From IMG/VR virus record IMGVR_UViG_3300041409_000253, positions 1 to 37,983 of that record: a stretch of DNA of 37,983 bases, one strand, 5' to 3'. How positions within the stretch are numbered: the stretch's first letter is position 1; the number at the start of each line of letters is the position of its first letter. This document shows positions 8,100-28,611 of the stretch, piece by piece. The position numbers and the translations under genes are program-made. Source of the DNA: a virus. The notes under the pieces were generated by a model, which was not told the DNA's origin, did no database searches, and was given only the letters and a program-made list of their open reading frames with translations.

Positions 8100-8728
8100 T
8101 GGTCTACAGCCTCACCGTCAAGACCGCCGCCGTCGCCGAGCCGGTCACCTTGGCCGAGGCCAAGGACCATTGCCGCATCCTCGACGACGTCACCGACCAG
8201 GATGCGTTGATCAGCGCGCTGATCGTCGCCGCGCGCGAGTGGTGCGAGAACTTCACCCGCCGCTCATTCGTGCGCCGCACCTACGAAATGCGCCTGGATA
8301 ATTGGTTTGGGGGCGACCGGTGCCGTGAGATTCTGCTGCCCCGCGGCCCGGTGTCGAGCGTCACCCACGTCAAGTACACCGACAGCGCCGGCGCACTCGC
8401 CACCCTGGCGGCCGACCAGTACCAGACCGGGCTCTACGACATGCCCGCGCGCATCGTGCCCGCCTTTGGCGTGGTCTGGCCCACGGTGAAGCCCGGCGCC
8501 GTGGATGCGGTGCTGATCGAATACGTCGCCGGCTACGCGCCCTCATCGGACAGCCCCACCGATCATGCCGCGAACGTGCCGGCCTCGGTCAAGGCGGCGA
8601 TGAAGCTGATCGTGGGCCACCTCTACGAGCAACGCGAACTGTCCGCCAACTCGGCGATTTTCGAGGTGCCCTTCGCCGTCAAGGCGCTGCTGGCACCGTT
8701 CGAGGTGCGCGACTACCGGCTGGAATGA
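8099..8728 (+). CDS. Head-tail connector (gp6-like, phiE125 gp8 type)
   Basis: 209 aa. These proteins form a ring below the portal that closes the filled head and receives the tail. Diagnostic features are the N-terminal VTLAEAKDHCRI helix, the LISALIVAAREWCENFTRRSF helix region, the ILLPRGPVSSVTHVKYTD strand and the C-terminal ASVKAAMKLIVGHLYEQRE helix, which fit the gp6-like connector family. Length is typical. Starts in a 1-nt TGATG overlap and ends in an ATGA overlap with the first gene of the carbohydrate block, so that block is read from the same message. Confidence 0.9.
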   Translation: MVYSLTVKTAAVAEPVTLAEAKDHCRILDDVTDQDALISALIVAAREWCENFTRRSFVRRTYEMRLDNWFGGDRCREILLPRGPVSSVTHVKYTDSAGALATLAADQYQTGLYDMPARIVPAFGVVWPTVKPGAVDAVLIEYVAGYAPSSDSPTDHAANVPASVKAAMKLIVGHLYEQRELSANSAIFEVPFAVKALLAPFEVRDYRLE

Positions 8729-9429
8729 AGCCGGTCTACTGGCCGGTGCCGCGGCTGTGGCCGGGCGAAACCGTGGTGCTCATCGGCGGCGGGCCCAGTC
8801 TCACGCCGGCGCAGGTCAATGCCTGCAAGCATCGCGCGCGGGTCATCGCCATCAATGATGCGCTGCGCCTGGCCCCGTGGTGCGACGTGCACTACTTCTG
8901 CGACGACCGCTGGTGGCGCTGGCACCACCGCAGCGACTGGTACAAGGCCTACACGGGGCTGCGCATCACCCTGGAAAACCTGCACCTGGCCAAGGAAGAC
9001 CCGACGCTCAAAAGCGTGCAGAACGTCGGCCGGCCCGATGCGCCGAAGCAGCCCACTGAGGCCTTGTGTAGCGAGCCCACCGGCGTGATGCCGGGGCGCA
9101 ACAGCGGGTACCAGTGCATCAACCTGGCCGTGCACCTGGGGGCAAAGCGGATCCTGCTGCTGGGTTTCGACATGAAGGGCGTGCTCGCCGGGCGCAGCGT
9201 GCGCACCCACTGGTTCGGCAAGCATCCGGACCCGACGGCGGATTCGGTGTATGCCGAGTTCCTGCAGCAGTTCCCGAAGCTGGTGAAGCCGCTGGCGGCC
9301 CTGGGCGTGGACGTCATCAACTGCAGTCCGGATTCCGCCCTGGGCTGCTTTAAAAAAACAACGATCGAAGAGGCACTCGATGCACCGCGCGTATTGCATG
9401 ATCCGGGCGCAGCCGCATTATCGGCGTGA
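8725..9429 (+). CDS. DUF115/Maf-like or GT42-like glycosyltransferase candidate
   Basis: 234 aa, first gene of the carbohydrate block, coupled by ATGA to the connector gene. The N-terminus has a nucleotide-binding-type loop, VLIGGGPSL (residues 18-26), then VIAINDALRLAPWCDVHYFCDD, and later GYQCINLAVHLGAKRILLLGFDM. This arrangement is seen in DUF115/Maf-type proteins and sialyltransferase-like folds, which suggests transfer or handling of a nucleotide-activated sugar, perhaps a nonulosonic acid. That is inference; similar phage proteins usually carry no defined function. No signal peptide or membrane segment, so it should act in the cytoplasm. Confidence 0.7.
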   Translation: MKPVYWPVPRLWPGETVVLIGGGPSLTPAQVNACKHRARVIAINDALRLAPWCDVHYFCDDRWWRWHHRSDWYKAYTGLRITLENLHLAKEDPTLKSVQNVGRPDAPKQPTEALCSEPTGVMPGRNSGYQCINLAVHLGAKRILLLGFDMKGVLAGRSVRTHWFGKHPDPTADSVYAEFLQQFPKLVKPLAALGVDVINCSPDSALGCFKKTTIEEALDAPRVLHDPGAAALSA

Positions 9430-10189
9430 CGCCTTTGTCAACGGACTCACCGCCGCCGGCTGGAAGGTAGAGAGCGTCTATCCGACCGCGAAGCCCGGGC
9501 CAGGTGACGTGCTGGTGATCTGGAACCGCTACGGCGAAGGCGAGGCCGTGGCCGACAAGTGGGAAAAGTTAGGCGGACTGGTGTTCGTCGCCGAGAACGG
9601 CTATGTCGGCCTCGATGCCGCCGGCGTGCAGTACTACGCGCTGTCGATTTCGCAGCACAACGGCGCCGGGCCCATCCCCACCGGCGATGGGTCCCGCTGG
9701 GAAAAACTCGGCATCGAAGTCAAGCCCTGGCGCACGGACGGCCACGCCCTGGTCATCCGCGGCCAGCGCGGCATCGGCAGCCGCCTGATGGCAAGCCCGC
9801 CGGATTGGCACAAGCGCGTGGGCGCGCACCTCGCCAAGCTCGCCGCGCGCAAGGTGGTGGTGCTGGACCACCCCGGCAAGCCGGCCTGCGACCCGGAAGT
9901 CGTCGCCTGGCTGTGCAAGAATTTCGAGCAGGCCCACGCCTGCCTGGTGTGGAGTTCCGGGGCCGCGATCCGCGCCCTGATCGAGGGGGTGCCCGCGTTC
10001 TACGCCGCCCCGCACTGGATCTGCGAAGGCGCGGCCTTGAAGTGGGGCGGGTACCCGGAAACGCCCCGGCGCGACGATGCGGCGCGCCTGGCGGCCCTGC
10101 AGCGCATGGCCTGGGGCCAGTGGACCATCGACGAGATCACCACCGGCGAGCCCTTCGTGCGGCTGCGCGAGCTGAAGGCGGCCGCATGA
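9380..10189 (+). CDS. Putative GT-B-like glycosyltransferase, paralogue of next gene
   Basis: 269 aa from ATG 9380 (GAAGAGG upstream), overlapping the previous gene by 50 nt; an ATG at 9398 is the alternative. The C-terminal half carries VWSSGAAIRALIEGVPAFYA and then GQWTIDEITTGEPF, closely matched in the following gene (YSSGCAVTAILEGVPAFV and NQWTLDEMRSG). A small-residue motif before an E-G-V-P turn is typical of the nucleotide-sugar half of GT-B enzymes such as capsule-type transferases, so a transferase role is plausible but not certain. No export signal. It probably arose with its neighbour by duplication. Confidence 0.68.
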   Translation: MHRAYCMIRAQPHYRRDAFVNGLTAAGWKVESVYPTAKPGPGDVLVIWNRYGEGEAVADKWEKLGGLVFVAENGYVGLDAAGVQYYALSISQHNGAGPIPTGDGSRWEKLGIEVKPWRTDGHALVIRGQRGIGSRLMASPPDWHKRVGAHLAKLAARKVVVLDHPGKPACDPEVVAWLCKNFEQAHACLVWSSGAAIRALIEGVPAFYAAPHWICEGAALKWGGYPETPRRDDAARLAALQRMAWGQWTIDEITTGEPFVRLRELKAAA

Positions 10190-10989
10190 TCGTCGGCTAT
10201 CCCACCCCCGGCAAGGGCAAGGCGCGCGTGATTCTGGATGCGTTCTGCGCCGGCGCCGGCGGCCGGGTGGCCGAGGCCATCCCGCCGCAGTTGCACGATG
10301 GCGCCGCCGCGTTCTACGGCATCACCGAGGCCACCCGGCACCTGTGGGAGCAAGCCAGGGCCGAAGGCCGCGACTGGGTGTATCTGGACAACGCCTATTT
10401 CGACGGCTGCCGCCAGCCGCCGCTGATCAATGGCTACTTTCGGGCGACGTTCAACCGGCTGCAGCACCCCGGCACCGGGGTGTCCGATGGCCAGCGCCTG
10501 GCGCAGTTGATCAAGGCCGGGCTGGTGCAGGAACCCAGGCCCTGGCGTTTCACGGGCGCCCACATCGTGGTGGCGCCGCAGTCGGCGCAGTTCATGAAAA
10601 CCGTCGCCGGCTACGCGGGCAACTGGGTGGAAGACATCCACAAGGCCATCCGTGCCGTCACCACCCGGCAGATCACCTGCCGCCCGTGGACGGCGGACAA
10701 GGTCGAGCAATACCGGCAACTGAAGCTCGACCTGCGCCAGGCGCGCGCGGTGGTCACGTATTCCAGCGGTTGCGCGGTGACGGCGATTCTCGAAGGCGTG
10801 CCCGCGTTCGTGATGGGCCAGGACGCGATTTCGCGGCCGGTTGCCTTTACGGATCTGCGGTACATCGAAAAAGGCCCGCCGCCGCAGGCGCAATGCCTGC
10901 GCCGTCCGTGGATGGAAGTCGTTGCCGATAACCAGTGGACCCTGGACGAAATGCGCAGCGGCCTGTGCTGGAACATGCTCAATGCCTAA
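10186..10989 (+). CDS. Putative GT-B-like glycosyltransferase, paralogue of previous gene
   Basis: 267 aa, ATGA-coupled to the gene before. The N-terminal half differs from its neighbour (GYPTPGKGKARVILDAFCAGAGG, then WVYLDNAYF), while the C-terminal half shares the SSGxA..A..EGVPAF and QWTxDE motifs, so the pair is paralogous in the second domain. I infer a GT-B-like transferase or a related sugar-binding protein of unknown substrate. The C-terminus overlaps the methyltransferase gene by 8 nt. Nothing suggests membrane attachment. Confidence 0.68.
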   Translation: MIVGYPTPGKGKARVILDAFCAGAGGRVAEAIPPQLHDGAAAFYGITEATRHLWEQARAEGRDWVYLDNAYFDGCRQPPLINGYFRATFNRLQHPGTGVSDGQRLAQLIKAGLVQEPRPWRFTGAHIVVAPQSAQFMKTVAGYAGNWVEDIHKAIRAVTTRQITCRPWTADKVEQYRQLKLDLRQARAVVTYSSGCAVTAILEGVPAFVMGQDAISRPVAFTDLRYIEKGPPPQAQCLRRPWMEVVADNQWTLDEMRSGLCWNMLNA

Positions 10990-11566
10990 CGGCTGGTTCG
11001 CGATCGAGGGCATGCAGCACGGCGCCCGCAGCGTCGAGGAACAACTGCAGGGCCTGGCCCCGGCGCTGGCCGTGGCCAGCGGCAAGACCGTCTATGACTT
11101 CGGCAGTGCCGAAGGGCTGATCGCGCTGGAGTTCGTCAAGTTCGGCGCCGCCTCGGTGCGCGGCTTCGACAACAACGCCGTGTTCCTGCATGCCGCCCAC
11201 CAGGTGCGTGCGCGGCTGCCAGCCGCGCAACAGGGCCGGGTCCGTTTCGAGCCCTGCGACCTGCGCGAGACTGGCGCGATTCGGCAATTGCCGGCGCGCG
11301 ACCTGGTGCTGGCCCTGGCCATCCTGCACAAGCTGGCCGACCCGGAGGCCTCGGCGCGCGCCATGGCGGCGCTGGCGCGCGAGCGCCTGGTGGTGCGCCT
11401 GCCGCTGGGTTCCGAAGGGGTGGTCCAGTACAAGCACGGCAAGGCGCGCTGCGATCTGCGCGCGGTGCTGCCCGAATGCGGGCTCACCCTTGAGCAAACC
11501 CTGCCCGGCCCGCGTGGCGAATGGGTGCAACACTGGATTCGAAAAGACTTGGTTGGAAACCCATGA
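10982..11566 (+). CDS. Class I SAM-dependent methyltransferase
   Basis: 194 aa from ATG 10982, which overlaps the upstream stop by 8 nt; upstream in-frame starts would run deep into the previous gene. The SAM-binding motif I is VYDFGSAEGLIAL (residues 37-49), followed by an acidic strand end, VRGFDN, and later RDLVLALAILHKLAD at motif IV. The substrate cannot be predicted; its place among glycosyltransferases suggests methylation of a sugar or a carrier-linked glycan. Length is short but complete for a minimal Rossmann methyltransferase. Confidence 0.8.
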   Translation: MPNGWFAIEGMQHGARSVEEQLQGLAPALAVASGKTVYDFGSAEGLIALEFVKFGAASVRGFDNNAVFLHAAHQVRARLPAAQQGRVRFEPCDLRETGAIRQLPARDLVLALAILHKLADPEASARAMAALARERLVVRLPLGSEGVVQYKHGKARCDLRAVLPECGLTLEQTLPGPRGEWVQHWIRKDLVGNP

Positions 11567-12105
11567 CCGCGCTGCTCCCGCACACCGGCCCGCGCAAGCG
11601 CCTGTTCGGCAAGGCCGCCGGCTGGCTGCACCAGGTCGACATCCTGCTCGATGTCGGCGCCGGCATCCGCCCGCAGGCCCTGGTGCCCTGCAGCCGCCAT
11701 ATTTGCGCCGAGCCCCATGGCGAATATGCCGATGTGCTGGCGGCGCACGGGTTCGAAGTCATCCGCGCGCGGGCCACGGAAGCGCTGGCCCGCATCGACC
11801 GGGTGGACACCATCGTCGCCCTGGACGTGATCGAGCACATGGAGCGCGACGAGGGCGAGGCCTTCATCAAAGCGGCGGTGGCCAAGGCGCGCCACCAGGT
11901 GGTGATTTTCACGCCGCTGGGCTTCATGCCGCAGGACGGCGGGGATGCGGCCGACCCCTGGGGGCTGCAGGGCCAGCACTGGCAGGCGCACCGCTCCGGC
12001 TGGACCCCGGCCGATTTTCCCGGCTGGCGTTGCCTGATCGGCAAGGACTTCCACAAAAAGCATAACCACGGCGCGTTTTTCGCCATCCATACCCGGAAGA
12101 CATGA
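11563..12105 (+). CDS. Class I SAM-dependent methyltransferase
   Basis: 180 aa from ATG 11563 in an ATGA overlap; an ATG at 11521 would add 14 residues but overlap more. Motif I is ILLDVGAGIRPQ (27-38), and VDTIVALDVIEHMERDE (81-97) is the typical motif IV/post-IV of UbiE-like methyltransferases acting on small molecules or glycans. The C-terminus ends in a basic HKKHNHG stretch. It forms a pair with the upstream methyltransferase but the two are not close in sequence. The substrate is unknown; context suggests a sugar moiety. Confidence 0.82.
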   Translation: MTALLPHTGPRKRLFGKAAGWLHQVDILLDVGAGIRPQALVPCSRHICAEPHGEYADVLAAHGFEVIRARATEALARIDRVDTIVALDVIEHMERDEGEAFIKAAVAKARHQVVIFTPLGFMPQDGGDAADPWGLQGQHWQAHRSGWTPADFPGWRCLIGKDFHKKHNHGAFFAIHTRKT

Positions 12106-13145
12106 ACGCCTTCTCCAGCCTCAAAGCCGCGTGGCACATCGAGCGCATCGCCGATCTGCGCGCCGGGCGCGACGTGGCGCCCACGCACGTGCAGCTGATC
12201 ATTTCCGACCTGTGCAACCAGGATTGCCACTTCTGCGCCTACCGCATGGAAGGCGGGTTTTCCACGGCCAACTTCGCCGATGAACAGGGCAACAAAAACC
12301 CCAAGCGCTTCATCCCCACCGCCAAGGCGCTGGAGATCCTGGACGACTGCGCCGCGGCCGGGGTGGGGGCGATCGAGTTCACCGGCGGGGGCGAGCCCAC
12401 CGTGCACCCGGAGTGGGAGCGCATCATCGGCCATGCCCAGGCGCTGGGCATGCAGACCGGGCTGGTCACCAACGGCGTGCGCCTGAAAGACCAGCCGGTG
12501 CTGGCCAAACTCACCTGGCTGCGCATCAGCCTCGATGCTGGCACGCCCGAGACCTACCAGCGCATCCGCCGCAGCCACGCCTGGCCGCAGGTGATGCGCG
12601 CGCTCGAAGCCGCCGGCAAGCTGCAAGGGCCGTTGGTCGGGGTCGGGTTCGTCGTCACCCGCGAGAACGCCGACGAGCTGGCGCAGTGCGCGGCCCTGGT
12701 CAAGGCTGCCGGCATCCCGTACCTGCGCGTCAGTGCCATGTTCAGCGAGCAGGGCGCAGAGTACTACAGCGGCCCCTGGCTCATCACCATCAACGCCCAG
12801 CGCGCCGAGGCCGCCGCGCTGCAGGATGCCCGCTTCAAGGTGGTGGATTTTTTCAGTGCCCGGGTCGAAGACCTGGAAAAACAGGCGCCGGATTATTCGT
12901 TCTGCGGCTACCAGCAGTTCGTGGTCTACATCGGCGGCGACCAGAAGGTCTACACCTGCTGCACCAACGCCTACACCCCGCACGGCGAGATCGGCGACTT
13001 GAAGCAGCAGCGCTTCGCCGATTGGCTGAAGACCACGCGGCGCTTCGATTTCGATGCGAGATCCTGCCACCACTGCCAGTTCAACGATCGCAACAAGGTC
13101 ATCGGCTACATGGTCGGCAAGCCCGAGCACGTCGACTTCGTATGA
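12102..13145 (+). CDS. Radical SAM enzyme with C-terminal cysteines (SPASM/twitch-like)
   Basis: 347 aa, ATGA-coupled on both sides. The [4Fe-4S]-binding CxxxCxxC motif is CNQDCHFC (C38, C42, C45), followed by the SAM-contact strand GAIEFTGGGEPTVHP. The C-terminal part contains further cysteines (FCGYQQF, then VYTCCTNAY, then SCHHCQF) that could bind an auxiliary cluster, as in SPASM/twitch proteins. The enzyme would generate a 5'-deoxyadenosyl radical to modify a sugar, peptide or nucleoside; which one is unknown. Placement between methyltransferases and glycosyltransferases favours a glycan or a glycosylated protein side chain. Confidence 0.9.
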   Translation: MNAFSSLKAAWHIERIADLRAGRDVAPTHVQLIISDLCNQDCHFCAYRMEGGFSTANFADEQGNKNPKRFIPTAKALEILDDCAAAGVGAIEFTGGGEPTVHPEWERIIGHAQALGMQTGLVTNGVRLKDQPVLAKLTWLRISLDAGTPETYQRIRRSHAWPQVMRALEAAGKLQGPLVGVGFVVTRENADELAQCAALVKAAGIPYLRVSAMFSEQGAEYYSGPWLITINAQRAEAAALQDARFKVVDFFSARVEDLEKQAPDYSFCGYQQFVVYIGGDQKVYTCCTNAYTPHGEIGDLKQQRFADWLKTTRRFDFDARSCHHCQFNDRNKVIGYMVGKPEHVDFV

Positions 13146-13831
13146 AGCCGTTCGTATCCCTGATCCTGCCGTATTGGCAGCGGCCGGCAGCGGTGGAAAA
13201 AGCGCTCGTCACCCTGAAGCCGGAGCTCGAACGGATACAACTGGAAATCATCGTTGTCGATGACGGCTCGCCGATGCCATTTGTCAGGCCGCCGGAGTGG
13301 TCAGACATCGAGGTGGTGCGGCTGCCTCTTAAGGATCGTCCGCTGAACCCTTGCGTGCCGATCAATCGTGGCGTGGAAGTCGCGCGGGGAGAATACATCG
13401 CACTGTCCTGCGCCGAGATTTTGCACAGCCAGGGCCCGGTTCTGGACAAGCTGCTGTGGCCGGTGGAGCACTACGGTAGTGAGCTATACGTCACGGCTGG
13501 CTGCTGGTCGCCGGATGAAAAGCGCTGGCATGCGCACTCCACTGTGCCGCCGATGGCCGATGATTTCCAGTTACCGATCGGGTCGCACTTCCACTTCATG
13601 TCGATGATGCACCGCTCGCTGTGGGACAAGGCGGGGGGCTTCGATGAGGAATACCGCGAGGGCGCCGGCTACGAAGACGCCGATTTCCTCATGCGCTTGC
13701 AACGAGTCGGTGCCAAGTTTCTGTTGCGTGACGACGTGGTCGTGGAGCATCCGCGTGCCGGCACGCGGGCCGCGTGGACGCGCGCCATGCACAAGCGCAA
13801 TGCCGAACTGTTCCGGAGCAAGTGGTGCTGA
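13142..13831 (+). CDS. Family 2-like glycosyltransferase
   Basis: 229 aa, ATGA-coupled to the radical-SAM gene. The N-terminus VSLILPYWQRP, the nucleotide-binding VVDDGSP (38-44) and the acceptor-side motif GFDEEYREGAGYEDADFLMRL are characteristic of GT-A inverting family 2 enzymes. The usual metal-binding DXD after GEYIAL is replaced by SCAEI, so metal use may be altered or supplied by another acidic residue. Base composition is a little less GC-rich than in its neighbours. It is cytoplasmic, with no membrane segment; sugar donor and acceptor are unknown. Confidence 0.85.
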   Translation: MKPFVSLILPYWQRPAAVEKALVTLKPELERIQLEIIVVDDGSPMPFVRPPEWSDIEVVRLPLKDRPLNPCVPINRGVEVARGEYIALSCAEILHSQGPVLDKLLWPVEHYGSELYVTAGCWSPDEKRWHAHSTVPPMADDFQLPIGSHFHFMSMMHRSLWDKAGGFDEEYREGAGYEDADFLMRLQRVGAKFLLRDDVVVEHPRAGTRAAWTRAMHKRNAELFRSKWC

Positions 13832-14451
13832 CCGTCGCCTGTGTCGAGTGGGGCAACTATTGCGGCAAGGGGCGGCGCTACGTCGACAATCTGTTCGCCG
13901 GCGTGCTCCTGAACCTGCACACGCCGTACCGTTTCGTGTGTCTCACCGACGATCCGGACCGCCATGCGGTCGACACCATCCGCCTGACGCCGGGCGCAAC
14001 CGGCTGGTGGAACAAGCTCGAGCTGTTCCGCCCGGGGCTGTTCGAGGGCCGGGTGCTCTATCTCGATCTCGACAACTTCATCGTCGGCAGTCTCGACGCC
14101 CTGGTGCAGCACAAGGGCATCATCCACCTCGAGCAGTGGGGCTGGAAGGTCAACGACTACGGCAGCGGCGTGATGGTTTGGGATGCCGGCGAACATGCCG
14201 AGGCCTGGGAACGCATGAATGACCCACCCATGCCCGCCGCGATGCGCTTTCGTGGCGACCAGGACTGGCTGACCGCGCTCGGCGGCTGGGACGCGCTGCC
14301 GGTGCCGATGGTCTGTTCGTTCAAGTACCACTGCAAGCCCACGCCGCCCGCCGGCGCTGCGGTGGTGTGCTGCCACGGCCCGCGCAAGCCGCATGTGTTG
14401 CACCGCGCCGACCAGGAAGCCTGGCTGCGCCCGCTTTGGCCGGCGGCGTAG
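13825..14451 (+). CDS. GT-A glycosyltransferase with DXD motif
   Basis: 208 aa. I place the start at GTG 13825 because GGAG lies 6 nt upstream and the family-like sequence begins there (LTVACVEWGNYCGKGRRYV); GTG 13822 is the alternative. The metal-binding motif is VLYLDLDNFIVGSL with D81 and D83, and the pattern resembles GT8/glycogenin-like or phage-encoded transferases. A following NDYGSGVMVW segment is typical of the acceptor side. The start overlaps the upstream stop by 7 nt. Substrate is unknown. Confidence 0.8.
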   Translation: MLTVACVEWGNYCGKGRRYVDNLFAGVLLNLHTPYRFVCLTDDPDRHAVDTIRLTPGATGWWNKLELFRPGLFEGRVLYLDLDNFIVGSLDALVQHKGIIHLEQWGWKVNDYGSGVMVWDAGEHAEAWERMNDPPMPAAMRFRGDQDWLTALGGWDALPVPMVCSFKYHCKPTPPAGAAVVCCHGPRKPHVLHRADQEAWLRPLWPAA

Positions 14452-14454
14452 CGC

Positions 14455-15216
14455 GTGGGCTGGGGTGATGAGCTCATGGTCACGGGCCAGGCCCGTGTCC
14501 TGCAGGAACGCGACCCCAGAAAGGTGCGCGTGGTGTACGAGCGGCCGCGCTGGCATGAGGCCTGGGACAACAACCCGCGCATCGCCGGCCGCGACGAGGT
14601 GGGGGATTTTCAGCAGCTGCGGGCGCGTGATGGCTACCGCCGCCCCTACATTGCCGCCAAGGGGGAAACCCAATGGACCTGGCAGGCGTGGGGCCCGCCG
14701 GTGGGGGAGCTGTACTTTAGCCACGCCGAAACCCTGTTCGGCGAAAAGCACGCCGGCCGGGTGATCGTCGAGCCGACCCTCAAGATGGGGGCCAGCCCCA
14801 ACAAGCAATGGCCCTGGCGCAACTGGGAGCAGCTGGTCGCCTGGCTGCGCAAACGCGGCATCAAGCCCGCGCAGCTGGGCACGGTGAACACCCAGCGCGT
14901 GACCGGGGCCGATTTCATCGGCACGGCCAGCATGCGGCAGGCAGCGGCGGTCATCGCCCGCGCCCGCGCCGTGGTGGTGCCAGAGGGCGGCATGCACCAC
15001 GTCGCCGCGGCCACCGGCACGCCGGCGGTGGTGATTTACGGCGGCTACATCGCCCCGGCGGTCACCGGGTATGCCAGCCAGCGCAACGTGTTCATCAACG
15101 ACCCCGCGCACCCGCTGGGCTGCGGCATGCGCGTGCGCTGTCCGCATTGCGTGCAAGCCATGGAACGCATCACGCCCGAGCTCGTGACGGGCCTTCTGGA
15201 GACCTTCTTACAATGA
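14455..15216 (+). CDS. Family 9 (heptosyltransferase-like) glycosyltransferase
   Basis: 253 aa, starting at GTG 14455, 3 nt after the upstream stop. Family landmarks are the N-terminal GWGDELMVTGQAR and the C-terminal VVVPEGGMHHVAAATGTPAVVIYGG, the nucleotide-sugar site of ADP-heptose-type GT-B enzymes. The protein is shorter than LPS heptosyltransferases (about 320-350 aa), with a reduced N-terminal domain. C-terminal cysteines (GCGMRVRCPHC) are notable. A role in building a short glycan is likely; the sugar need not be heptose. Confidence 0.85.
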   Translation: MGWGDELMVTGQARVLQERDPRKVRVVYERPRWHEAWDNNPRIAGRDEVGDFQQLRARDGYRRPYIAAKGETQWTWQAWGPPVGELYFSHAETLFGEKHAGRVIVEPTLKMGASPNKQWPWRNWEQLVAWLRKRGIKPAQLGTVNTQRVTGADFIGTASMRQAAAVIARARAVVVPEGGMHHVAAATGTPAVVIYGGYIAPAVTGYASQRNVFINDPAHPLGCGMRVRCPHCVQAMERITPELVTGLLETFLQ

Positions 15217-15854
15217 AAAATATCGGCGGCGTCTGGCTGCCCGACAATGAGACGCACCTGGTCGAGTGGATGCAGAACCGCAACCAGGTGGTCGACGGCA
15301 AACTCACCTACCAGTACCACAAGCTGGAAGCGGCCCTCAAACACGTCAAGCAATTCCGCGCGGCGATCGACGTCGGCGCCCATTGCGGGCTGTGGAGCAT
15401 GCACCTCGCCAAGCGGTTCGCCATGGTGCACGCCTTCGAGCCGGTGTTCGCGCACCGCGAGTGCTTCCATGTCAATGTCGGCCCCGTCAATGCGTTGCTC
15501 TATGCCGTCGCCCTTGGCGCGCAACACGGCCGGGTGGCGATGCAAACGGCGCCCAGCAGCAGCGGCGACACCACCGTCACTGAGGGCGATGACGTGCCGC
15601 TGATGATGCTGGACGAATACGACTTTCACGAGGTCGACTTCATCAAGTTGGACTGCGAAGGCTACGAGCTGTTCGCCCTCATGGGTGGCGAGCAGACCAT
15701 CCTGCGCAACAAGCCCTGCATCTGCGTCGAACAAAAACCCGGCAAGGCCCGGCAATTCGGACTGGGCGAAACCGATGCCGTGGCGTGGCTGCAGGAACGC
15801 GGTGCCAAGCTGCGCGCCGAGATCGCGGGCGACTACATCCTGTCATGGGACTGA
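15213..15854 (+). CDS. FkbM-type methyltransferase
   Basis: 213 aa, ATGA-coupled to the GT9 gene. SAM motif I is AAIDVGAHCGLWSMHLA (51-67), followed by HAFEPVFAHRECF, and the family signature VDFIKLDCEGYELFAL (141-156). FkbM-type enzymes commonly O-methylate hydroxyl groups on sugars or polyketides. In this setting, terminal methyl capping of a glycan is a reasonable guess. The C-terminus overlaps the next gene by 10 nt. No membrane segment. Confidence 0.9.
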   Translation: MKNIGGVWLPDNETHLVEWMQNRNQVVDGKLTYQYHKLEAALKHVKQFRAAIDVGAHCGLWSMHLAKRFAMVHAFEPVFAHRECFHVNVGPVNALLYAVALGAQHGRVAMQTAPSSSGDTTVTEGDDVPLMMLDEYDFHEVDFIKLDCEGYELFALMGGEQTILRNKPCICVEQKPGKARQFGLGETDAVAWLQERGAKLRAEIAGDYILSWD

Positions 15855-16591
15855 ACGAGCTCGAGGTGTTCATTGGCTGGGACGCGCGCGCGCGCACCGC
15901 CTGGCAGGTCTGCGAGCGCTCCTTGCAGCACCACGCCGCCGACCCGGTGCCGGTGCGCGCCATTGGCCGCAAGATGCTGCAGAACATCGGCGCCTATACC
16001 CGGCTCACCTCGGAAGTCGATGGGAAATTGCTGGACCACCGCAGCAACGAATTCTGCAGCACCGATTTTTCCCTGGCGCGCTTCTGGGTGCCGCAGTTAG
16101 CCGGGCGTGCGGGCTGGGCGCTGTACTGCGACAGCGATTTCCTGTTTCGGGCCGATGTGCGCGAGATCCTGGAACACGCCGACCCGAGATACGCGGTGAT
16201 GGTGGTGCCGCACCAGCACGAGCCAACGGATACCAGCAAGATGAACGCCCAGCAGCAGACCGCCTACTTTCGCAAGAACTGGTCGAGCCTGATGCTGTGG
16301 AACCTGGCGCACGCCGGCTGCCAGCGCTTGAGCCCGCACGACCTGAACACCTGGCACAAGCATGACCTGCACGGCTTTCGCTGGCTGGCGAGCAACGAAA
16401 TCGGGTTTTTGCCGGAGCCGTGGAACTGGCTGGTCGGCGTGAGCCCGACCCTGCCGCCCTCCGAGCCTTACCTGCAGCCGCCGAAAGCGGTGCACTTCAC
16501 CAACGGAACCCCCGACATGAAAGGCTACGAGCGCATGGCGTATGCCGACGAGTGGCGGTCTTACCAGCAGCCCGCGGAGCGTGTGGCATGA
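15845..16591 (+). CDS. GT8-like glycosyltransferase with DXD motif
   Basis: 248 aa from ATG 15845; an earlier in-frame start at 15785 would add 20 non-family residues. The N-terminus LEVFIGWDARARTAWQV and the motif WALYCDSDFLF with D96 and D98 are typical of retaining GT-A transferases related to family 8. Phage and LPS clusters often carry relatives. It is the last enzyme of the block; its stop overlaps the chimeric tail gene as ATGA, so the entire block lies in one coupled message between connector and tail genes. Confidence 0.82.
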   Translation: MGLNELEVFIGWDARARTAWQVCERSLQHHAADPVPVRAIGRKMLQNIGAYTRLTSEVDGKLLDHRSNEFCSTDFSLARFWVPQLAGRAGWALYCDSDFLFRADVREILEHADPRYAVMVVPHQHEPTDTSKMNAQQQTAYFRKNWSSLMLWNLAHAGCQRLSPHDLNTWHKHDLHGFRWLASNEIGFLPEPWNWLVGVSPTLPPSEPYLQPPKAVHFTNGTPDMKGYERMAYADEWRSYQQPAERVA

Positions 16592-17643
16592 GGGCCGGCA
16601 AGCTGCGTCACACCATCACCCTGCAGGAAAAAGCCCACTGGGTGCCGGCCGGGTCGATGCTGCCGGGCAAGGCCGGGGTTTTGCCTGGCGTTGCCAGTAA
16701 CTATTTTTCAACACCGGACAGTGCAGCGCTCGACATCACTGGCGACATCGACATCCGCGCAAAGGTGATGCTGAACGACTGGACGCCCACAGGCAGCCCC
16801 TATATCGTAAGCAAGAACGGCGTGAGTTCGGCTTATCACTTACGCCTGATTGGCGGCACGGGGCAGATCAGGTTTGGCTGGTTCGATGGCTCGACTGCGC
16901 GCACGGCAGATTCGGTTGGCGGCACTGGATTCGCGGATGGATCTACCCACTGGATTCGAGCCACCATGGATGTGGATGCGGCGGGGTCTCCCTCTGAATA
17001 TGCGGTCAAGTTCTACACCAGCGAGGATGGCATCACCTGGACGCAATTGGGGGCCACGAAAACTGGCGCGGGTCCCACCCAACTTAGTGTAGGCACCGCA
17101 GTGCTTGCGGTTGGCATGTTCACGAACGGGACATCTGACCCCCTTGATGGCCACGTTCACTACGCCGACGTCCGCAACGGCATCGACGGCACCGTCGTCG
17201 CCGAGTTCGACCCCTCTGACTGGACGAGCGGCACGACCTGGACCGCCGACACCGGCGAAGTCTGGACGATCAACAGCAGCGGCAGCCCGTCGATCGGCAT
17301 CGTGTCGGTCAGCGATCCAACGGTACAGGGCGCCTCCCAGACTGGAAACAGCCTTGCCACCGAGGGCTGGAAAAACAACGCCACCGGCCTGCTGCTGCCG
17401 GGCGATTACTTCGGGGTGAATGGCGAACTCAAGATCGTCACCGCGCAGGCGGATGCCGACAACTATGGCAACGCTACCCTCAACTTTCGCCCGCCGCTGC
17501 GCTCGTCGCCCGCCGATGGCGCCGTGCTCGACCTGGTGCAACCCACCACCGAGTTCATGCTAACCGGCCCCGACGTCGAGTGGAACGTCAACGAGGGCAA
17601 CCTGTTCGCCGATTTCGTGATCGACGCGGTGGAAGCCTTCTGA
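16588..17643 (+). CDS. Chimeric tail protein: joining-protein start, LamG-like domain, tail domain
   Basis: 351 aa, ATGA-coupled to the block upstream. Three parts are visible. Residues 1-16 (MRAGKLRHTITLQEK) match the first residues of phage head-tail joining proteins of the Phage_H_T_join family, which are usually ~110 aa. Residues ~36-230 look like a concanavalin A/LamG-type beta-sandwich (FSTPDSAALDITGDIDIRAK onward). Residues ~245-351 resemble the C-terminal domain of the tail protein usually encoded after the tape measure (TGLLLPGDYFGV, LNFRPPLRSSP). The middle segment is visibly less GC-rich. It was probably formed by deletion and domain swap. Confidence 0.72.
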   Translation: MRAGKLRHTITLQEKAHWVPAGSMLPGKAGVLPGVASNYFSTPDSAALDITGDIDIRAKVMLNDWTPTGSPYIVSKNGVSSAYHLRLIGGTGQIRFGWFDGSTARTADSVGGTGFADGSTHWIRATMDVDAAGSPSEYAVKFYTSEDGITWTQLGATKTGAGPTQLSVGTAVLAVGMFTNGTSDPLDGHVHYADVRNGIDGTVVAEFDPSDWTSGTTWTADTGEVWTINSSGSPSIGIVSVSDPTVQGASQTGNSLATEGWKNNATGLLLPGDYFGVNGELKIVTAQADADNYGNATLNFRPPLRSSPADGAVLDLVQPTTEFMLTGPDVEWNVNEGNLFADFVIDAVEAF

Positions 17644-17645
17644 TG

Positions 17646-17688
17646 TTCACCCAGCACGCAGCACCCAGCACGCAGCACCGCCCTTATG
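17646..17688. repeat. Heptanucleotide CAGCACN repeat insertion, copy 1
   Basis: Four tandem heptamers CAGCACG, CAGCACC, CAGCACG, CAGCACC at 17652-17679. The segment lies directly behind a TGATG stop/start overlap (17641-17645), whose ATG now opens an 18-codon frame ending at 17696. The element ends in CGCCCTTATG, supplying the ATG at 17686 that begins the next tail gene. It reads as an insertion placed exactly after a start codon. Confidence 0.75.
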
Positions 17689-18438
17689 TCCCGTGACATC
17701 GACGCCGCCATTACCACCGCCCTGGCCGGGCAGCACGTCCCGGCCTTGATGCTGGTGGAGCTCGATTTCCCGTCCGGCACCCTGCGCCTGAACAACTCCG
17801 GGCAGAACATCGACTGGAACGGGTCTACCTGGTACGCCGGCGGGGCGCTGATCGGCATTTCTGAGGTGGCGGAATCCACCGACGGCGAGGCCCACGGGGT
17901 GACCCTGCAACTGAACGCGGTGGAGTTAACCCCGATCACCGGCTCGCCCAACAACGCCAACATCGTGCAGCTCGCCCGCGCGCAGAACTACCAGGGCCGC
18001 GCGGCGCGGGTGTGGCTCGCCCCGCTCGATGCCGACTACGTGCCGGTGGTGGATCCGGTGCTGGCCTTCGAGGGGCGCATGAACAAGATGGATTTCCAGG
18101 TGGGCGAGGACGCGGCCTTTTCGCTGGCCTGCGAATCGCGCTTTGCCGACTGGAACCGCCCGCGCGTGCGCCGCTACAACGACGCCGACCAGCGCAGCCG
18201 CTTCCCGTCCGATCGCGGGCTCGAATACATGGAACAGATGGTCGAGAAGCAACTGATCTGGAAGTTCCCCGTGCCGGGCAGCTTCGGCAGCGGCGTCAAC
18301 GCCGGCAGCAGCCGCGGCGCCCTGGTGACCACCGACCGCGGCGGGGCCGTCACCATCGGCGCCATGACCCCGCAACAGGTGCAAAGCCTCAACAACGGCC
18401 GCGGGGGTGTCAACACCTTCGGCGGCAACGGACGCTAA
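17686..18438 (+). CDS. Tail protein, DUF2163/baseplate-hub-like
   Basis: 250 aa from ATG 17686. The N-terminus (RDIDAAITTALAGQHVPALMLVELDFPSG) and the LACESRFADWNRPRVRRYNDADQ segment are typical of a phage tail-tip protein found just before the NlpC/P60-like and J-like genes, equivalent in place to lambda L or to GTA tail-tip components. It likely forms part of the hub joining tail tube and tip. The Gly/Asn-rich C-terminus is low complexity. The start codon comes from the heptamer insertion, so translational coupling to the upstream gene has probably been weakened. Confidence 0.82.
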   Translation: MSRDIDAAITTALAGQHVPALMLVELDFPSGTLRLNNSGQNIDWNGSTWYAGGALIGISEVAESTDGEAHGVTLQLNAVELTPITGSPNNANIVQLARAQNYQGRAARVWLAPLDADYVPVVDPVLAFEGRMNKMDFQVGEDAAFSLACESRFADWNRPRVRRYNDADQRSRFPSDRGLEYMEQMVEKQLIWKFPVPGSFGSGVNAGSSRGALVTTDRGGAVTIGAMTPQQVQSLNNGRGGVNTFGGNGR

Positions 18439-18441
18439 CCC

Positions 18442-18861
18442 ATGCGCTTTGAAAACTGGCCAGAACGCCTGGCCGAAGAAGTCCGGGCCGCGAAATCGCG
18501 GCCTTTTGTTTGGGGCACCCACGACTGCGCCAGCTTCGTGTCGCGCGTGGTCGAGGCCCTGACCGGTATCAACTGGAAGGACACCTTCCTGGCCTATACG
18601 GACGCCGCCGGCGCGCAGGACATCCTCAACGAGCAGGGCAGCCTCGAGGAACTGGTCACCGAATGCCTGGGCGAACCGATTCCCGCGCTCACCGCCCAGC
18701 GCGGCGACGTCTGCCTCATCGAACTGCCCGAAGGCCTGCACGGCGAGCACGGCCCCTTTGTGCTCGGCATCTGCGACGGCAGCCGGGTCGTCGTCGCCCG
18801 CCCGCCGCAAGGCATTGCCATGCTGCCGATCAAGTGGGCTGTCAAGGCGTGGCGCGTATGA
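18442..18861 (+). CDS. NlpC/P60-like tail assembly protein (lambda K-like, DUF6950)
   Basis: 139 aa, 3 nt after the previous stop. It has the fold signature of papain-like NlpC/P60 proteins: the catalytic-type Cys in WGTHDCASFVSRV (C29) and a later His candidate in HGEHGPFVLG. These proteins sit at the tail tip and probably cut peptidoglycan during DNA entry or process tail parts. Length and gene order (between the DUF2163-like and J-like genes) are normal. Its stop overlaps the next start as ATGA. Confidence 0.85.
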   Translation: MRFENWPERLAEEVRAAKSRPFVWGTHDCASFVSRVVEALTGINWKDTFLAYTDAAGAQDILNEQGSLEELVTECLGEPIPALTAQRGDVCLIELPEGLHGEHGPFVLGICDGSRVVVARPPQGIAMLPIKWAVKAWRV

Positions 18862-21764
18862 ACCCGGTGCTGCGTGCTGCGTGCTGGGTGCTGCGTAAGG
18901 GCCGTTCAAGCGCGAAGCGGCGTTCGCCTGTTAGCACGCAGCACGCAGCACTCAGCACGCTGTTGCTCCTGCTCTTCCCAGGCATCGCCTGGGCGGGTCC
19001 GGCCGTCGGCGTCTTTTTCGCCGGCCTGACCTTCAAGGCGGTGGTGGTGGCGGTGATCAAGGCCGTCGCCCTGGGCCTGATCTCCCGCGCGCTGTTCAAG
19101 CCCAAGCGCCAGCAGTCGGGGCTGGACAACGCCGCGCGCGAGCGCATGGTGATGGTGCGCTCGGCCGTGGAGCCGCACCGCATCGTCATCGGCCAATGCC
19201 TGTGCTCGGGGCCGATTTCGTTCATGGAAGTCAGTGGCGCCAATTCCGAATACCTGCACGTGGTGGTGCTGCTGGCCGGGCACGAGGTGCAGGAGATCGG
19301 CGACATTTACTTCGACGACGTGCTGGTCGGCGACCTGGACGGCAGCGGCAATGTCACCACCGGCACCTTTGCCGGCTACGCGCGCATCAAGAAACACCTG
19401 GGCACGGACACCCAGACGGCGGATGCCGATCTGGTGTCCGAATGCCCCAGCCGCTGGACCACCGGCCACCGCAACCAGGGCATCGCCTACGTCTACGTGC
19501 GCCTGCTCAACAATGAGACCGCCTACGCCAACGGCCTGCCGCAGATCCGCGCGCTGGTGAAGGGCCGCAAGCTGTTTGATCCGCGTGTGGTCGGCAGCCC
19601 CAACAACCCGGTCTGGTCGCCCAATCCGGCGCTGGCCTGCCGCGATTACCTGGCCGCCGCGTTCGGCATTGCCGCGGCCAGCAGCGAGATCAACGACACC
19701 GACATCGCCGCCGCGGCCAATGCCGCCGATGAGCGGGTCACCGTCACCTACGTAACGCCAGCCTTCACCCTGGCGGTGGGCAGCCCGTCGGACAACATCG
19801 CCCACTTTGCCGAGGAAGAACACCGCCTCAAGACCGGCGATGCGGTGGTGCCCTCCACCACCGGCAGCCTGGCCGGCACCGGACTCACCGCCGGCACCGT
19901 GTACTGGTGGAGCTGGGTGTCGGCCACCGGCGGGCGCTTCCATACCAGCCGCGCCGCGGCCCTGGCCGGGACGTCGCCGGTGGCCATCGGCAGCGCCGGC
20001 AGCGGCACCCACACCTTACAGCCGCGCGCCGTGGTCACCGCCTCGGCCTCCACCGACAAGTTCACCTTCGAGTCTGACGAGCGCTACATCGCCCAGGGCG
20101 ACGGCGTGCAGGTGGCCACCACCGGCACCTTGCCGACCAATATCTCGGCCTTGACCACCTACTACGCGATCAAGACGCGCGCGAGCGAAATGCAGCTGGC
20201 CACCACCTATGCCCGGGCACTCGCCGGCACCGCCATCGATCTCGGTTCGGCCGGCTCCGGCACGCTCACCATCCTGCATGTGGACCAGGCCCGCTTCACC
20301 GCCAATGGTAGCTACAGCCTGGGCGAGTCGCCGGACGACATCATGGCCGGGCTGCTGTCCAGCATGGCCGGGGTGCGCACCTTCAGCCAGGGCGTCTACA
20401 GCGCCCACGCCGGGGTCTACAACTCGCCCACCTTGACCATCACCGCCGACGACCTGCGCGGCCCCATCACCGGCACCACGGGCCTGGATGCCCGCGAATT
20501 GTTCAATGCGGTGCGCGGCACCTATGTCGACCAGTTCAAGTTCTACCAGCCGACGGATTTTCCGCTGGTCACCAACGCCAGTTACGAGGCGCAGGACAAC
20601 GACGAGCAGATCGCCACCGACGCCGAGTTCCCGTTCTGCACCGACGTGGTGCGCGCCCAGCGCCTGGCCAAACAGTTACTCGAAGGCGCGCGCCGCGGCG
20701 AAGCCATCGTCCTGCCCTGCAAGCTGACGATGTTCAAGGCCGCGGTATGGGAAACCGCCGAGGTCACGATCGACACCCTGGGCTATGCCGACACCGTGTT
20801 CCGCGTGACCGGCTGGCGCTTTGCCTGGGACGACAACGGCCCCGGGGTGGATCTGTCGCTGGCCATTGCCGACAGCGCCCAGTACACCTGGGCCGCGGCG
20901 GACGCCACCCAGGTGGCGCAATCCACCGACATCGTGGTGCCGAACCTGCGCAGCATCGGCGCCCCGGTGGGCATCGGCAGCCCGATTGAGCTCGCCTTGA
21001 CCGCCGAGCGTGCCACCAGCTTCCAGGTGGCGAACCCCAACATCACCGTGGTGATCAAGGCCGACTGGGCCGCCGCGGTCGAGGCCAACGGCAAGCATTA
21101 CGAGGTGCAGTGGAAAAAATCCACCGACAGCACTTACAACTCGATCCTGCTGCCGTTTTCGGGCGACACCGAATACCGCATCAAGGAAACCGACAACAGC
21201 GCCACCTACAACGTGCGCGTGCGCACCGTGGCCATGAGCGGCGCGGTGTCGGCGTGGCTGTCCAACACCATCGTGGTGAGCCCCACCACGGTGCTGGCGG
21301 ATACGGATGACCTGCAGGTGGAAGCGGCCACCGTGGGGGTCGCGTCCTACACCGAAGGGCAGGTCTACCTCGAGGTGGGCAGCCCCAGCCGGGTGGAGAT
21401 CCAGCGCATCACCGTGGATTCCAGCGGCCTGGCGCCGATCATCATCATCGCCAGCGGCGAGTGGGATTTCCCGATCCCGACCTTTGACGCCACCAAGTTC
21501 ATCACCTGGTCGCTGTACCGCGAGCAGACCGGCAGCCCGTCGCGCGAACTGCTGTTCGACAGCCAGATGATCCTGCTGGGCAACGTGCCCACCGGCTTTT
21601 CCACCTCATTCCAGCATTACCTGACCTGGACCCATGTCGATTTCAACCCGCCGGCGGGCACCATTTCCTACGTCTGGGAAGGGCAGGGGCAGGACACCAA
21701 CCACATCCCCGAGGATTCCTACGTGGAAAAACGCAACCTGGTCTCCATCGAGTTAAAACGATGA
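18858..21764 (+). CDS. Tail-tip host-specificity protein (lambda J-like)
   Basis: 968 aa from ATG 18858 in an ATGA overlap. It is expected to form the tail tip and contact the host receptor. Residues ~35-80 are hydrophobic (LLLLLFPGIAWAGP onward), then comes a J-like core (EYLHVVVLLAGHEVQEIGDIYFDD, later ARELFNAVRGTYVDQFKF and the VRAQRLAKQLLEGARRGE region), then a fibronectin-III-like stretch around residues 690-810. The first ~35 residues are encoded by the heptamer repeat insertion (VLRAACWVLR, STQHAALST), so they are a recent addition and not family sequence. Confidence 0.9.
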   Translation: MNPVLRAACWVLRKGRSSAKRRSPVSTQHAALSTLLLLLFPGIAWAGPAVGVFFAGLTFKAVVVAVIKAVALGLISRALFKPKRQQSGLDNAARERMVMVRSAVEPHRIVIGQCLCSGPISFMEVSGANSEYLHVVVLLAGHEVQEIGDIYFDDVLVGDLDGSGNVTTGTFAGYARIKKHLGTDTQTADADLVSECPSRWTTGHRNQGIAYVYVRLLNNETAYANGLPQIRALVKGRKLFDPRVVGSPNNPVWSPNPALACRDYLAAAFGIAAASSEINDTDIAAAANAADERVTVTYVTPAFTLAVGSPSDNIAHFAEEEHRLKTGDAVVPSTTGSLAGTGLTAGTVYWWSWVSATGGRFHTSRAAALAGTSPVAIGSAGSGTHTLQPRAVVTASASTDKFTFESDERYIAQGDGVQVATTGTLPTNISALTTYYAIKTRASEMQLATTYARALAGTAIDLGSAGSGTLTILHVDQARFTANGSYSLGESPDDIMAGLLSSMAGVRTFSQGVYSAHAGVYNSPTLTITADDLRGPITGTTGLDARELFNAVRGTYVDQFKFYQPTDFPLVTNASYEAQDNDEQIATDAEFPFCTDVVRAQRLAKQLLEGARRGEAIVLPCKLTMFKAAVWETAEVTIDTLGYADTVFRVTGWRFAWDDNGPGVDLSLAIADSAQYTWAAADATQVAQSTDIVVPNLRSIGAPVGIGSPIELALTAERATSFQVANPNITVVIKADWAAAVEANGKHYEVQWKKSTDSTYNSILLPFSGDTEYRIKETDNSATYNVRVRTVAMSGAVSAWLSNTIVVSPTTVLADTDDLQVEAATVGVASYTEGQVYLEVGSPSRVEIQRITVDSSGLAPIIIIASGEWDFPIPTFDATKFITWSLYREQTGSPSRELLFDSQMILLGNVPTGFSTSFQHYLTWTHVDFNPPAGTISYVWEGQGQDTNHIPEDSYVEKRNLVSIELKR
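18861..18960. repeat. Inverted heptanucleotide repeat insertion, copies 2 and 3
   Basis: The left arm has four units of (G/C)GTGCTG (18866-18893) and the right arm four units of (T/C)AGCACN (18932-18959), on opposite strands and separated by about 38 nt. The two arms can pair to a long imperfect hairpin in DNA or RNA. The element lies directly after the start codon of the J-like gene and is in frame, adding about 34 codons. The units match copy 1 at 17652-17679. No transposase is present. Confidence 0.8.
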
Positions 21765-27356: not shown

Positions 27357-27785
27357 TCAGCACATCGACGTCCTTGCGAATTCGCCGAAGTCGTTCTTGA
27401 ACACGCACACCACGCACCGCTCGGAAAAGTCATAGGCGCATTTGCGCTTGTTGCTGGGCAGCAGCTGCGCGTGCTGGCGCGGGGTGAGGCTGCGCAGCGT
27501 GTCGATGCGGCTTGCCATGGTGGGCGGCTCGGCCACGGTGTTGCGGCCGATGATCAGGCCCGCGCACAGCACAATGATGAGGATCGCCCAACTGCGCGCG
27601 AAGTTCAGGCGCCGGATCCAGGTACTGCGGCGGGTTTCCCCCGGGGTGCCCAGGGCCATGGGGCCGTGCAGGTTGGGAATGTCGCCGACAATGCCGTGAC
27701 GGTCGTGACTGGCGTGACTGGCGTGACGGTCGTGAGGGCGTGAGAGGGTCAGGATGGCGAGGCGGTCACGGAAGGCGAGGGGCAT
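27357..27785 (-). CDS. Small single-pass membrane protein
   Basis: 142 aa from the ATG at 27785, with GGAG 6 nt upstream. One membrane segment is clear (SWAILIIVLCAGLIIG, about residues 65-80); the N-terminus is His/Arg-rich and the C-terminal part carries several cysteines (KCAYDF, RCVVCVF, TSMC). I do not recognise a family. It is one of a run of small membrane proteins in the leftward early operon, overlapping the upstream gene by 29 nt. Exclusion of other phages is one possible role for such genes. Confidence 0.6.
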   Translation of the reverse strand: MPLAFRDRLAILTLSRPHDRHASHASHDRHGIVGDIPNLHGPMALGTPGETRRSTWIRRLNFARSWAILIIVLCAGLIIGRNTVAEPPTMASRIDTLRSLTPRQHAQLLPSNKRKCAYDFSERCVVCVFKNDFGEFARTSMC

Positions 27786-27951: not shown

Positions 27952-28124
27952 TTCTTCACGCAATAAAGCCGCATGGCTCTGGTGTGGTTGTTGGCCGTGA
28001 TGGCGCGGATCGCGGCCTCGCAAGTCTCGCGGCTACTGAATTCCTGAAATGACGCGTTCGCGCACTGCCCTGACGTGTTCACGTGACCGCACGTCAACAT
28101 GATCAAAATGAAGATGCCGTTCAT
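27948..28124 (-). CDS. Small exported or membrane cysteine-containing protein
   Basis: 58 aa from the ATG at 28124, which has AAAGGGG 6 nt upstream. The first ~15 residues (MNGIFILIMLTCGHV) look like a short signal or anchor, followed by a cysteine-bearing region (GQCANASFQEF, ETCEAAIRAI, LYCVKK) that suggests a disulfide-bonded periplasmic domain. No family recognised, though the spacing of Cys resembles small secreted phage proteins. Coupled to the next gene by ATGA. Confidence 0.62.
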   Translation of the reverse strand: MNGIFILIMLTCGHVNTSGQCANASFQEFSSRETCEAAIRAITANNHTRAMRLYCVKK

Positions 28125-28164
28125 GGTCCCCTTTCCCCTTTTCTCTCGTCTCTCGTCTCTGGTT

Positions 28165-28611
28165 TCACCAGTGCAGCATCCCGTCCAGGTGCTCGCGCTC
28201 GTGGGCCTTGACGAAGCCGGGGGTGAGCGCGCAGGTGTAGGCGATCGCGGTCTTGTTGACCTCGGTGATGGCATTGGTCTTGGGGTCGCGCCAGGCCTGC
28301 AGCCAGAACTGGGTGCAGCCCAGCGGCACGGACCCCAGCGCGATCCAGTACCAGGGCATGCCGGCGTAGCAGATCTCCAGCATGCGCAGGCAGGGCACGG
28401 TGACTTCGAACTGGTAGTCGATCCTGGGGTTGCGGATCTGCTCGGCGGTGAGATCGGCCCCGAGGGTGTCGCGCAGGCGCTGCACTTCGGCGTCGCTCAC
28501 CTGCCAGCCGGTTTTCGGCAGCATCGGCGAGCAGGCCATGGACCAGGCGATCAGGAGGCCGCAGACGAGGCCGCAGGCAAAGCCGTGGCGGGTGATGAGC
28601 GACGGCTTCAA
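28165..28611 (-). CDS. Exported protein with HEREH zinc-protease-like motif
   Basis: 148 aa, starting at TTG 28611 in a TTGA overlap with the gene upstream. Residues 1-27 form a signal-like sequence ending in WSMAC, a marginal lipobox. Near the C-terminus, VKAHEREHLDGM provides an HExxH motif (H137, E138, H141). Cysteines (PCLRML, ICYAG, GCTQF, YTCAL) may form disulfides. I do not recognise the family. It is the second exported HExxH protein in the genome, here under early control, so not a lysis protein; it may be an envelope-modifying cargo protein. Confidence 0.62.
   Translation of the reverse strand: MKPSLITRHGFACGLVCGLLIAWSMACSPMLPKTGWQVSDAEVQRLRDTLGADLTAEQIRNPRIDYQFEVTVPCLRMLEICYAGMPWYWIALGSVPLGCTQFWLQAWRDPKTNAITEVNKTAIAYTCALTPGFVKAHEREHLDGMLHW

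Follow-up and report, generated by a model that had tools for sequence, protein, structure and literature searches.

Period-7 arrays past stop codons in a temperate tailed phage and their counterparts in bacterial genomes

Background

Scattered descriptions of heptamer arrays, from single genera, go back decades, and to our knowledge there is no accepted answer on their origin and role. The present analysis concerns three period-7 arrays in a virus record of 37,983 bases (IMGVR_UViG_3300041409_000253), the whole of which is called the window here. Two of the arrays are built of CAGCACN units and lie beside tail genes (site 1, one-armed, and site 2, with two inverted arms); the third (site 3) is built mainly of another heptamer, AGAGACG.

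The closest described systems are the GGGAATC repeats of Xanthomonas and the GGGGA(C/T)T repeats of Nostoc, which are heptameric and intergenic and for which no function was found (Rehm 2015, PMC4692102). The class traits stated there are about four units of period 7, a place between genes, convergent orientation of opposite-sense neighbours and closeness of the 5' side of the repeat strand to the end of an open reading frame (ORF). The phage arrays share this period and count (four units at site 1, and four and 3(+1) in the arms of site 2), the intergenic place, the convergent orientation (site 2) and the closeness of the 5' side to an ORF end, which is 5 nucleotides (nt) at site 2 and is also seen in 89 of 117 arrays elsewhere. 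The GGGAATC unit is described as G-quadruplex-forming and chromosomal, whereas CAGCACN has no G tract, so the phage arrays belong to the wider class and not to the GGGAATC family. Anchoring at stop codons, exchange of heptamers and carriage by a phage are not among the traits given in the available part of that report.

The TAACTGA direct repeats of Beggiatoaceae, cyanobacteria and Bacteroidetes have been proposed to act in translational control (MacGregor 2015, PMC4679880). These arrays likewise lie a few nt ahead of starts or past stops, ribosome-binding sites are often missing beside them, and their length changes by 7 nt between close strains; sites 1 and 3 of the window, 7 nt and 1 nt upstream of a start codon, resemble them in placement. 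They differ in sequence (CAGCACN and AGAGACG in the window), in being mostly direct, with one inverted repeat in that genome, and in the emphasis on the start side (PMC4679880). In Geobacter metallireducens a heptanucleotide family of four tandem GGGACCG units is dispersed in one genome; it also occurs within genes, not just between them, and was proposed to be a regulatory RNA (PMC2700814). REP/BIME elements are likewise dispersed extragenic palindromes able to form RNA hairpins, but they are palindromes of 20-40 base pairs (bp) with a GTAG or CGTC tag at one end and hold no period-7 arrays (PMC3733652). DRT10 defence reverse transcriptases can synthesise short tandem repeats of DNA on an RNA template, the sequence varying by system. 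They differ in the 9-nt repeats of the best-studied system, in protein priming and in that chromosomal integration is unreported in the available part of that report; they show bacteria to have a telomerase-like enzyme for tandem-repeat synthesis (PMC12632851). A link to heptamer arrays would be an analogy only.

The class is thus already known in pieces (Rehm 2015; MacGregor 2015), and the phage arrays are a variant of it. A search for the letters of the CAGCAC array returned unrelated papers only. As far as the searched literature shows, most subscription papers being outside its reach, the additions made here are the setting in a phage tail operon, the anchoring on the stop side and junctions found in three states with swapping of heptamers.

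Results

The window was scanned for tandem repeats. Period-7 runs (17/21 matches) were found at three places only, every one filling the gap between two genes; the same scan gave no run at periods 4, 5, 6, 8, 10 and 11 and one run each at 9 and 12. No period-7 run was present in 192 of 200 composition shuffles, and the maximum in any shuffle was one. The period-7 repeats of the phage are not due to chance. The window has 81 copies of the hexamer CAGCAC itself, where 34.8 are expected.

Site 1 holds four CAGCACN units on the plus strand at 17652-17678 (CAGCAC copies at 17652, 17659, 17666 and 17673), 8 nt past the TGA (17641-17643) that ends the distal tail protein gene (16588-17643) and 7 nt ahead of ATG 17686. 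Site 2 is a two-armed inverted element with the anatomy TGA-5 nt-(GTGCTGN)4-loop-(NCAGCAC)4. Its left arm at 18867-18893, with CAGCAC on the minus strand at 18867, 18874, 18881 and 18888, begins 5 nt past the stop TGA 18859-18861 of the DUF6950 gene (18442-18861, plus strand; Pfam PF22262, PHROG 2134). The loop (18894-18931) begins CGTAAG, and the right arm (18932-18958, plus strand) has one degenerate unit, TAGCAC at 18932-18937, and three perfect CAGCACN units at 18939, 18946 and 18953. These heptamers, at 17652 and as an inverted pair near 18866-18959, had been reported by an initial annotation and were found in place. Site 3 lay outside its coordinates and was overlooked there; it is a one-armed array on the minus strand (28125-28164; AGAGACG, then AGGGGAA), 4 nt past TGA 28165-28167 and 1 nt ahead of ATG 28122-28124, and over 28122-28167 reads TGA-AACC-(AGAGACG)2-AGAGAAA-AGGGGAA-AGGGGAC-C-ATG. 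No additional AGAGACG array occurs among the fetched loci. The three phage arrays start 4-8 nt past stop codons, and all lie in gene gaps if the J-like gene downstream of site 2 starts at TTG 18963; with its start at ATG 18858, site 2 lies within the J frame. The late operon (64-23215) contains 344 nt of non-coding DNA in all, of which the two array gaps account for 143.

The arms of site 2 fold at -62 to -63 kcal/mol (z -3.7 to -4.5), in accordance with the large mRNA hairpin proposed earlier. The hairpin is followed by GCTGTTGCTCC and lacks the T run of an intrinsic terminator. The GTAG or CGTC tag of REP/BIME is absent at site 2, whose flanks are ACCCG and GCTG, and Rfam at gathering score gave no match anywhere in the window.

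Four-unit arrays were then scanned for in other sequences and were obtained in 31 viral stretches and at least 120 genome stretches, the latter, among the matches listed, from cyanobacteria, Chloroflexi, Acidobacteria, Chlorobi, Nitrospira, Planctomycetes and Proteobacteria. The distribution is patchy, 6 of 369 genomes carrying the repeats in one class sample. With the array as query, annotated phages gave no match and plasmids gave short partial matches only; the inverted pattern matched neither viral contigs nor five proteobacterial genomes. Genes in the loci were called with our own simple script, by which stops are firm and starts less sure.

Placement in the genome loci follows clear rules. 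Array elements are intergenic in 89 of 121 cases against an intergenic background of 18%. Random placement, which would speak against the initial annotation, was tested and does not hold; in other loci 35 of 145 elements lie inside called ORFs. Where opposite-sense arrays of the fetched loci stand at most 200 bp apart, the order is always GTGCTG...CAGCAC (-+, 21 cases) and never the reverse (+-, 0), and site 2 is also -+. Of 117 arrays, 60 have the end on the 5' side of the GTGCTG strand no more than 30 nt from a gene boundary, and 14 have the opposite end that close; the 5'-side, outer end is the closer one in 89 of 117 (p 1e-8). The choice of loci by their arrays adds no bias because the polarity tests are symmetric. 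Among 47 two-armed elements, the window's included, 5 are within called ORFs, and the remainder lie at a median of 10 nt from stop codons against 35 nt from starts. At tandem junctions the stop side is nearer in 26 of 33 (p 0.001), position within the gap being non-uniform (p 7e-5). The 5 nt between stop and element at site 2 is typical of two-armed elements. The placement rule of the initial annotation is upheld in so far as the arrays recur at stop/start junctions; its wording "exactly behind start codons" is not, the stop being closer. The arrays are anchored on the upstream stop codon rather than on the start codon.

A similar polarity extends to other heptamers. In non-family genome loci (the family is described below), strong period-7 runs were present at 28 of the junctions devoid of GTGCTG-type sequence, against 0-4 at each other period from 4 to 12. 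In a larger set, of 77 period-7 arrays with unrelated sequence, the G/T-rich strands lie near the left boundary and C/A-rich strands near the right (p 1e-4), the medians being 11 nt (outer side) and 73.5 nt (inner side). Constant period, inward G/T-rich strand, stop-side position and replacement of the heptamer thus hold across the repeat-bearing phyla sampled and in the phage.

Orthologous junctions were compared over a family of 12 genomes, including Gammaproteobacteria bacterium isolate REEB89, in 7 of which arrays occur. The family element runs stop, a few nt, (GTGCTGN)n, loop, (CAGCACN)n, a few nt and next gene; its variable position is mostly G, with C/T, as in the window, and its loops often begin CGTAAAA or CGTGAAA. 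Three operon junctions were followed, the gene names being our own reading of the protein sequences and the states not being polarised by a tree. The gatA-gatB junction is 2-5 nt wide in four genomes, has a GTGCTG element beginning 5 nt past the stop in G391 and in G054, and in G387 contains a degenerate version of it. At guaB-guaA the GTGCTG element is present in one genome and GTGAGGN...CCTCAC arrays in at least three; nrdR-ribD is occupied by the GTGCTG element in three genomes and by the GTGAGG type in three or more. Paired junctions differ in width accordingly, 43 against -4 nt (L257/L267) and 115 against 5 nt (L275/L281), and unit number differs between orthologous arrays, 8 against 4 (L259/L266). 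In sister genomes one and the same junction can thus be bare or occupied; phages near enough to set exact borders were not found. At guaB-guaA (L297-L307), in addition, an unrelated stem-loop of the GGAAGGCCGC-GCGGCCTTC type stands past the stop in three genomes and is missing where heptamer arrays sit. Replacement of one post-stop hairpin by another is possible at this junction.

The effect of the arrays on the tail genes was analysed from their reading frames. It had been stated that both CAGCACN arrays follow directly on start codons. ATG 17643-17645 and ATG 18858-18860 do overlap the preceding TGA, and the first of these opens a dead frame, which is real and 17 codons long, not 18; that site 1 stands behind a functional start was not confirmed. 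The gene after site 1 (17686-18438, plus strand; a tail protein, PHROG 2048) has a homologue of 41% identity (L017) whose first codon corresponds to 17686 (MSRD); in L017 a Shine-Dalgarno, AGGAG, separates the stop from this start, and a leader frame is absent. By this homology the true start is ATG 17686, behind the array, and site 1 therefore lies within the tail gene's leader, 7 nt ahead of that start, in the usual place of the ribosome-binding site, which it displaces.

Site 2 lies within the reading frame of the J-like tail fibre gene (18858-21764, plus strand; start ATG 18858 or TTG 18963) because the J ATG overlaps the DUF6950 stop. From ATG 18858 the frame is open for 35 residues until the next in-frame start, TTG 18963, so the lengthening of the J-like protein put forward earlier would be by 35 residues rather than about 34, if that ATG is used. 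Site 2 either adds these in-frame residues or makes translation restart at the TTG, beyond a strong hairpin in the mRNA, and so it probably lowers J translation. Minus site 2, the J N-terminus would read MN-LLLLLFPGIAWAGPAVG, a length matching the short N-termini of homologues. A 7-nt slip, considered as J phase variation, would shift the frame of ATG 18858 and not that of TTG 18963. Start codons and N-termini beside such arrays, as in the J-like gene, may be mis-called by annotators.

The phage has no near relative by DNA and shows only about 30-41% identity by protein; exact array borders in the phage can therefore not be set. The host was approached with the J protein, which was found in no genome contigs, in 1 of 369 class genomes and in neither of two families. 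Compared by tetranucleotide profile, the window and the repeat-bearing family correlate at a mean r of 0.84, against 0.50 for other repeat loci, and a proteobacterial locus (L123) is nearer still at 0.91. No more than a hint at the host can be taken from this, G+C content and class being confounded in the comparison and the J protein not having been found in the family.

Discussion

The reading we favour, and hold to be probable, is that the phage acquired period-7 intergenic arrays of host type, which are tolerated between genes past stop codons. The window carries three members of a widespread bacterial class, one- or two-armed, in which the G/T-rich strand points inward from the gene boundary and the outer end usually lies 0-15 nt past a stop. 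The arrays would have been acquired during prophage residence in a repeat-bearing host, the same process scattering them in host chromosomes and resident prophages, and they would persist since the few bases past a stop codon accept an insert without gene damage. They would then be tolerated passengers with side effects on two tail genes and not a dedicated phage device. This reading is supported by the three junction arrays, the -+ polarity, the intergenic excess and stop bias, the closeness of the outer end to gene boundaries, the similar polarity of arrays of other sequence, the bare, occupied and swapped states of junctions, the temperate genes of the phage and its likeness to the family in variable base and tetranucleotides.

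Several points weigh against it. An empty site was not found in the phage itself, which has no near phage relative; the J protein was not found in the repeat-bearing 12-genome family, and the host was not identified. Site 1 is of the right-arm type only, without a left arm. Arrays are few in viral contigs (the 31 stretches), several of them in called ORFs, and the closeness of the outer end to the stop in wide gaps does not obviously follow from persistence by tolerance alone.

Three candidate generators, polymerase slippage plus template switching, transposition, and end addition from a template, account for part of the data each, and the comparison of bare with occupied junctions makes the generator testable. 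Growth in place, by which chance repeats expand through polymerase slippage, a second arm arises by hairpin template switching and selection spares the intergenic arrays, is a less probable alternative. It would account for the differing unit numbers of orthologous arrays (8 and 4) and for a Thermomicrobiales locus (L068, 5660-5770 and 6360-6455), where two neighbouring copies with closely matching flanks have the two-armed core in opposite orientation, which suggests recombination between arms. Slippage, however, predicts neither the strict -+ polarity nor the G/T-rich strand rule, and it leaves whole two-armed elements unexplained at junctions just 2-5 nt wide in relatives.

Transposition is unlikely. 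A short inverted-repeat element, MITE-like or REP/RAYT-like, mobilised by a transposase in trans and targeting sites past stops, agrees with the two-armed anatomy with inverted ends, the dispersed copies per genome and the bare and occupied states of orthologous sites. The arm sequence, unit number and loop vary freely, though, sister genomes hold different heptamers at the same junction, and one-armed forms are common. The bare and occupied gatA-gatB junctions, judged by eye, show no convincing target duplication, though the inverted arms are present. A single mobile mini-element, as first suggested for the window, is not demonstrated: no target duplication was recognised, sites of the same kind hold unrelated heptamers, and no transposase turned up, no search being aimed at one.

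A selected regulatory device, in which the hairpin or repeat controls translation or mRNA decay of its neighbours in the phage as in the host, seems doubtful to a greater degree. The two-armed forms do make strong hairpins, with folding z of -4.5 at site 2, -7.3 at gatA-gatB and -4.3 at guaB-guaA; the three array-free guaB-guaA genomes have their stem-loop past the stop, and translational control was proposed for TAACTGA arrays (MacGregor 2015, PMC4679880). One-armed arrays do not fold, and the variable base does not covary between opposite arms in the 12-genome family (the excess at other loci being confounded by genome-specific bases); hairpin function is therefore not class-defining. Furthermore, the same junction is bare in sister species, and no role was found for the GGGAATC-type repeats (Rehm 2015, PMC4692102).

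It is quite improbable, and by analogy only, that the arrays are scars of telomerase-like repeat addition by a reverse transcriptase of DRT10/UG type or a similar templated enzyme, with genome-specific heptamers added to the 3' strands at both ends of a broken chromosome and the ends joined via filler DNA. Such an origin would predict inward G/T-rich 3' strands, exceptionless -+ order, a constant period with varying sequence and bare and occupied sites lacking target duplication, and a temperate phage would then carry the trace of such an event from its time as a prophage. One variable position in every unit, taken as a mark of templated synthesis, was unsupported in a sequence-agnostic test. 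That the arrays are chance or meaningless coding repeats is scarcely credible and was rejected on the shuffle test and the junction-only position of the runs, in spite of the general excess of CAGCAC in a G+C-rich window and the elements inside called ORFs elsewhere.

General features of the phage

Protein families matched in the window include terminase, portal, major head, distal tail, tail fibre/J-like, integrase and repressor. By this gene content the record is a tailed phage, and the integrase and repressor families mark it as temperate.

Some ten successive genes (8725-16591) inside the late operon, lying after the head-tail genes and before the tail genes, form a sugar-modifying cargo cluster in an unusual place, with matches to glycosyltransferase, FkbM and other methyltransferases, radical SAM and MptE-like proteins. 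The region 31639-32442 matches strongly the CBASS inhibitor family Acb3 (PF25187, E 9.5e-71), and the phage probably counters cyclic-nucleotide defence because of this match. Further tandem repeats lie in ORFs, namely a period-9 CGTGACGGG array at 27695-27743 and a 45-bp repeat with AAACCCGAACA pairs at 36270-36370.

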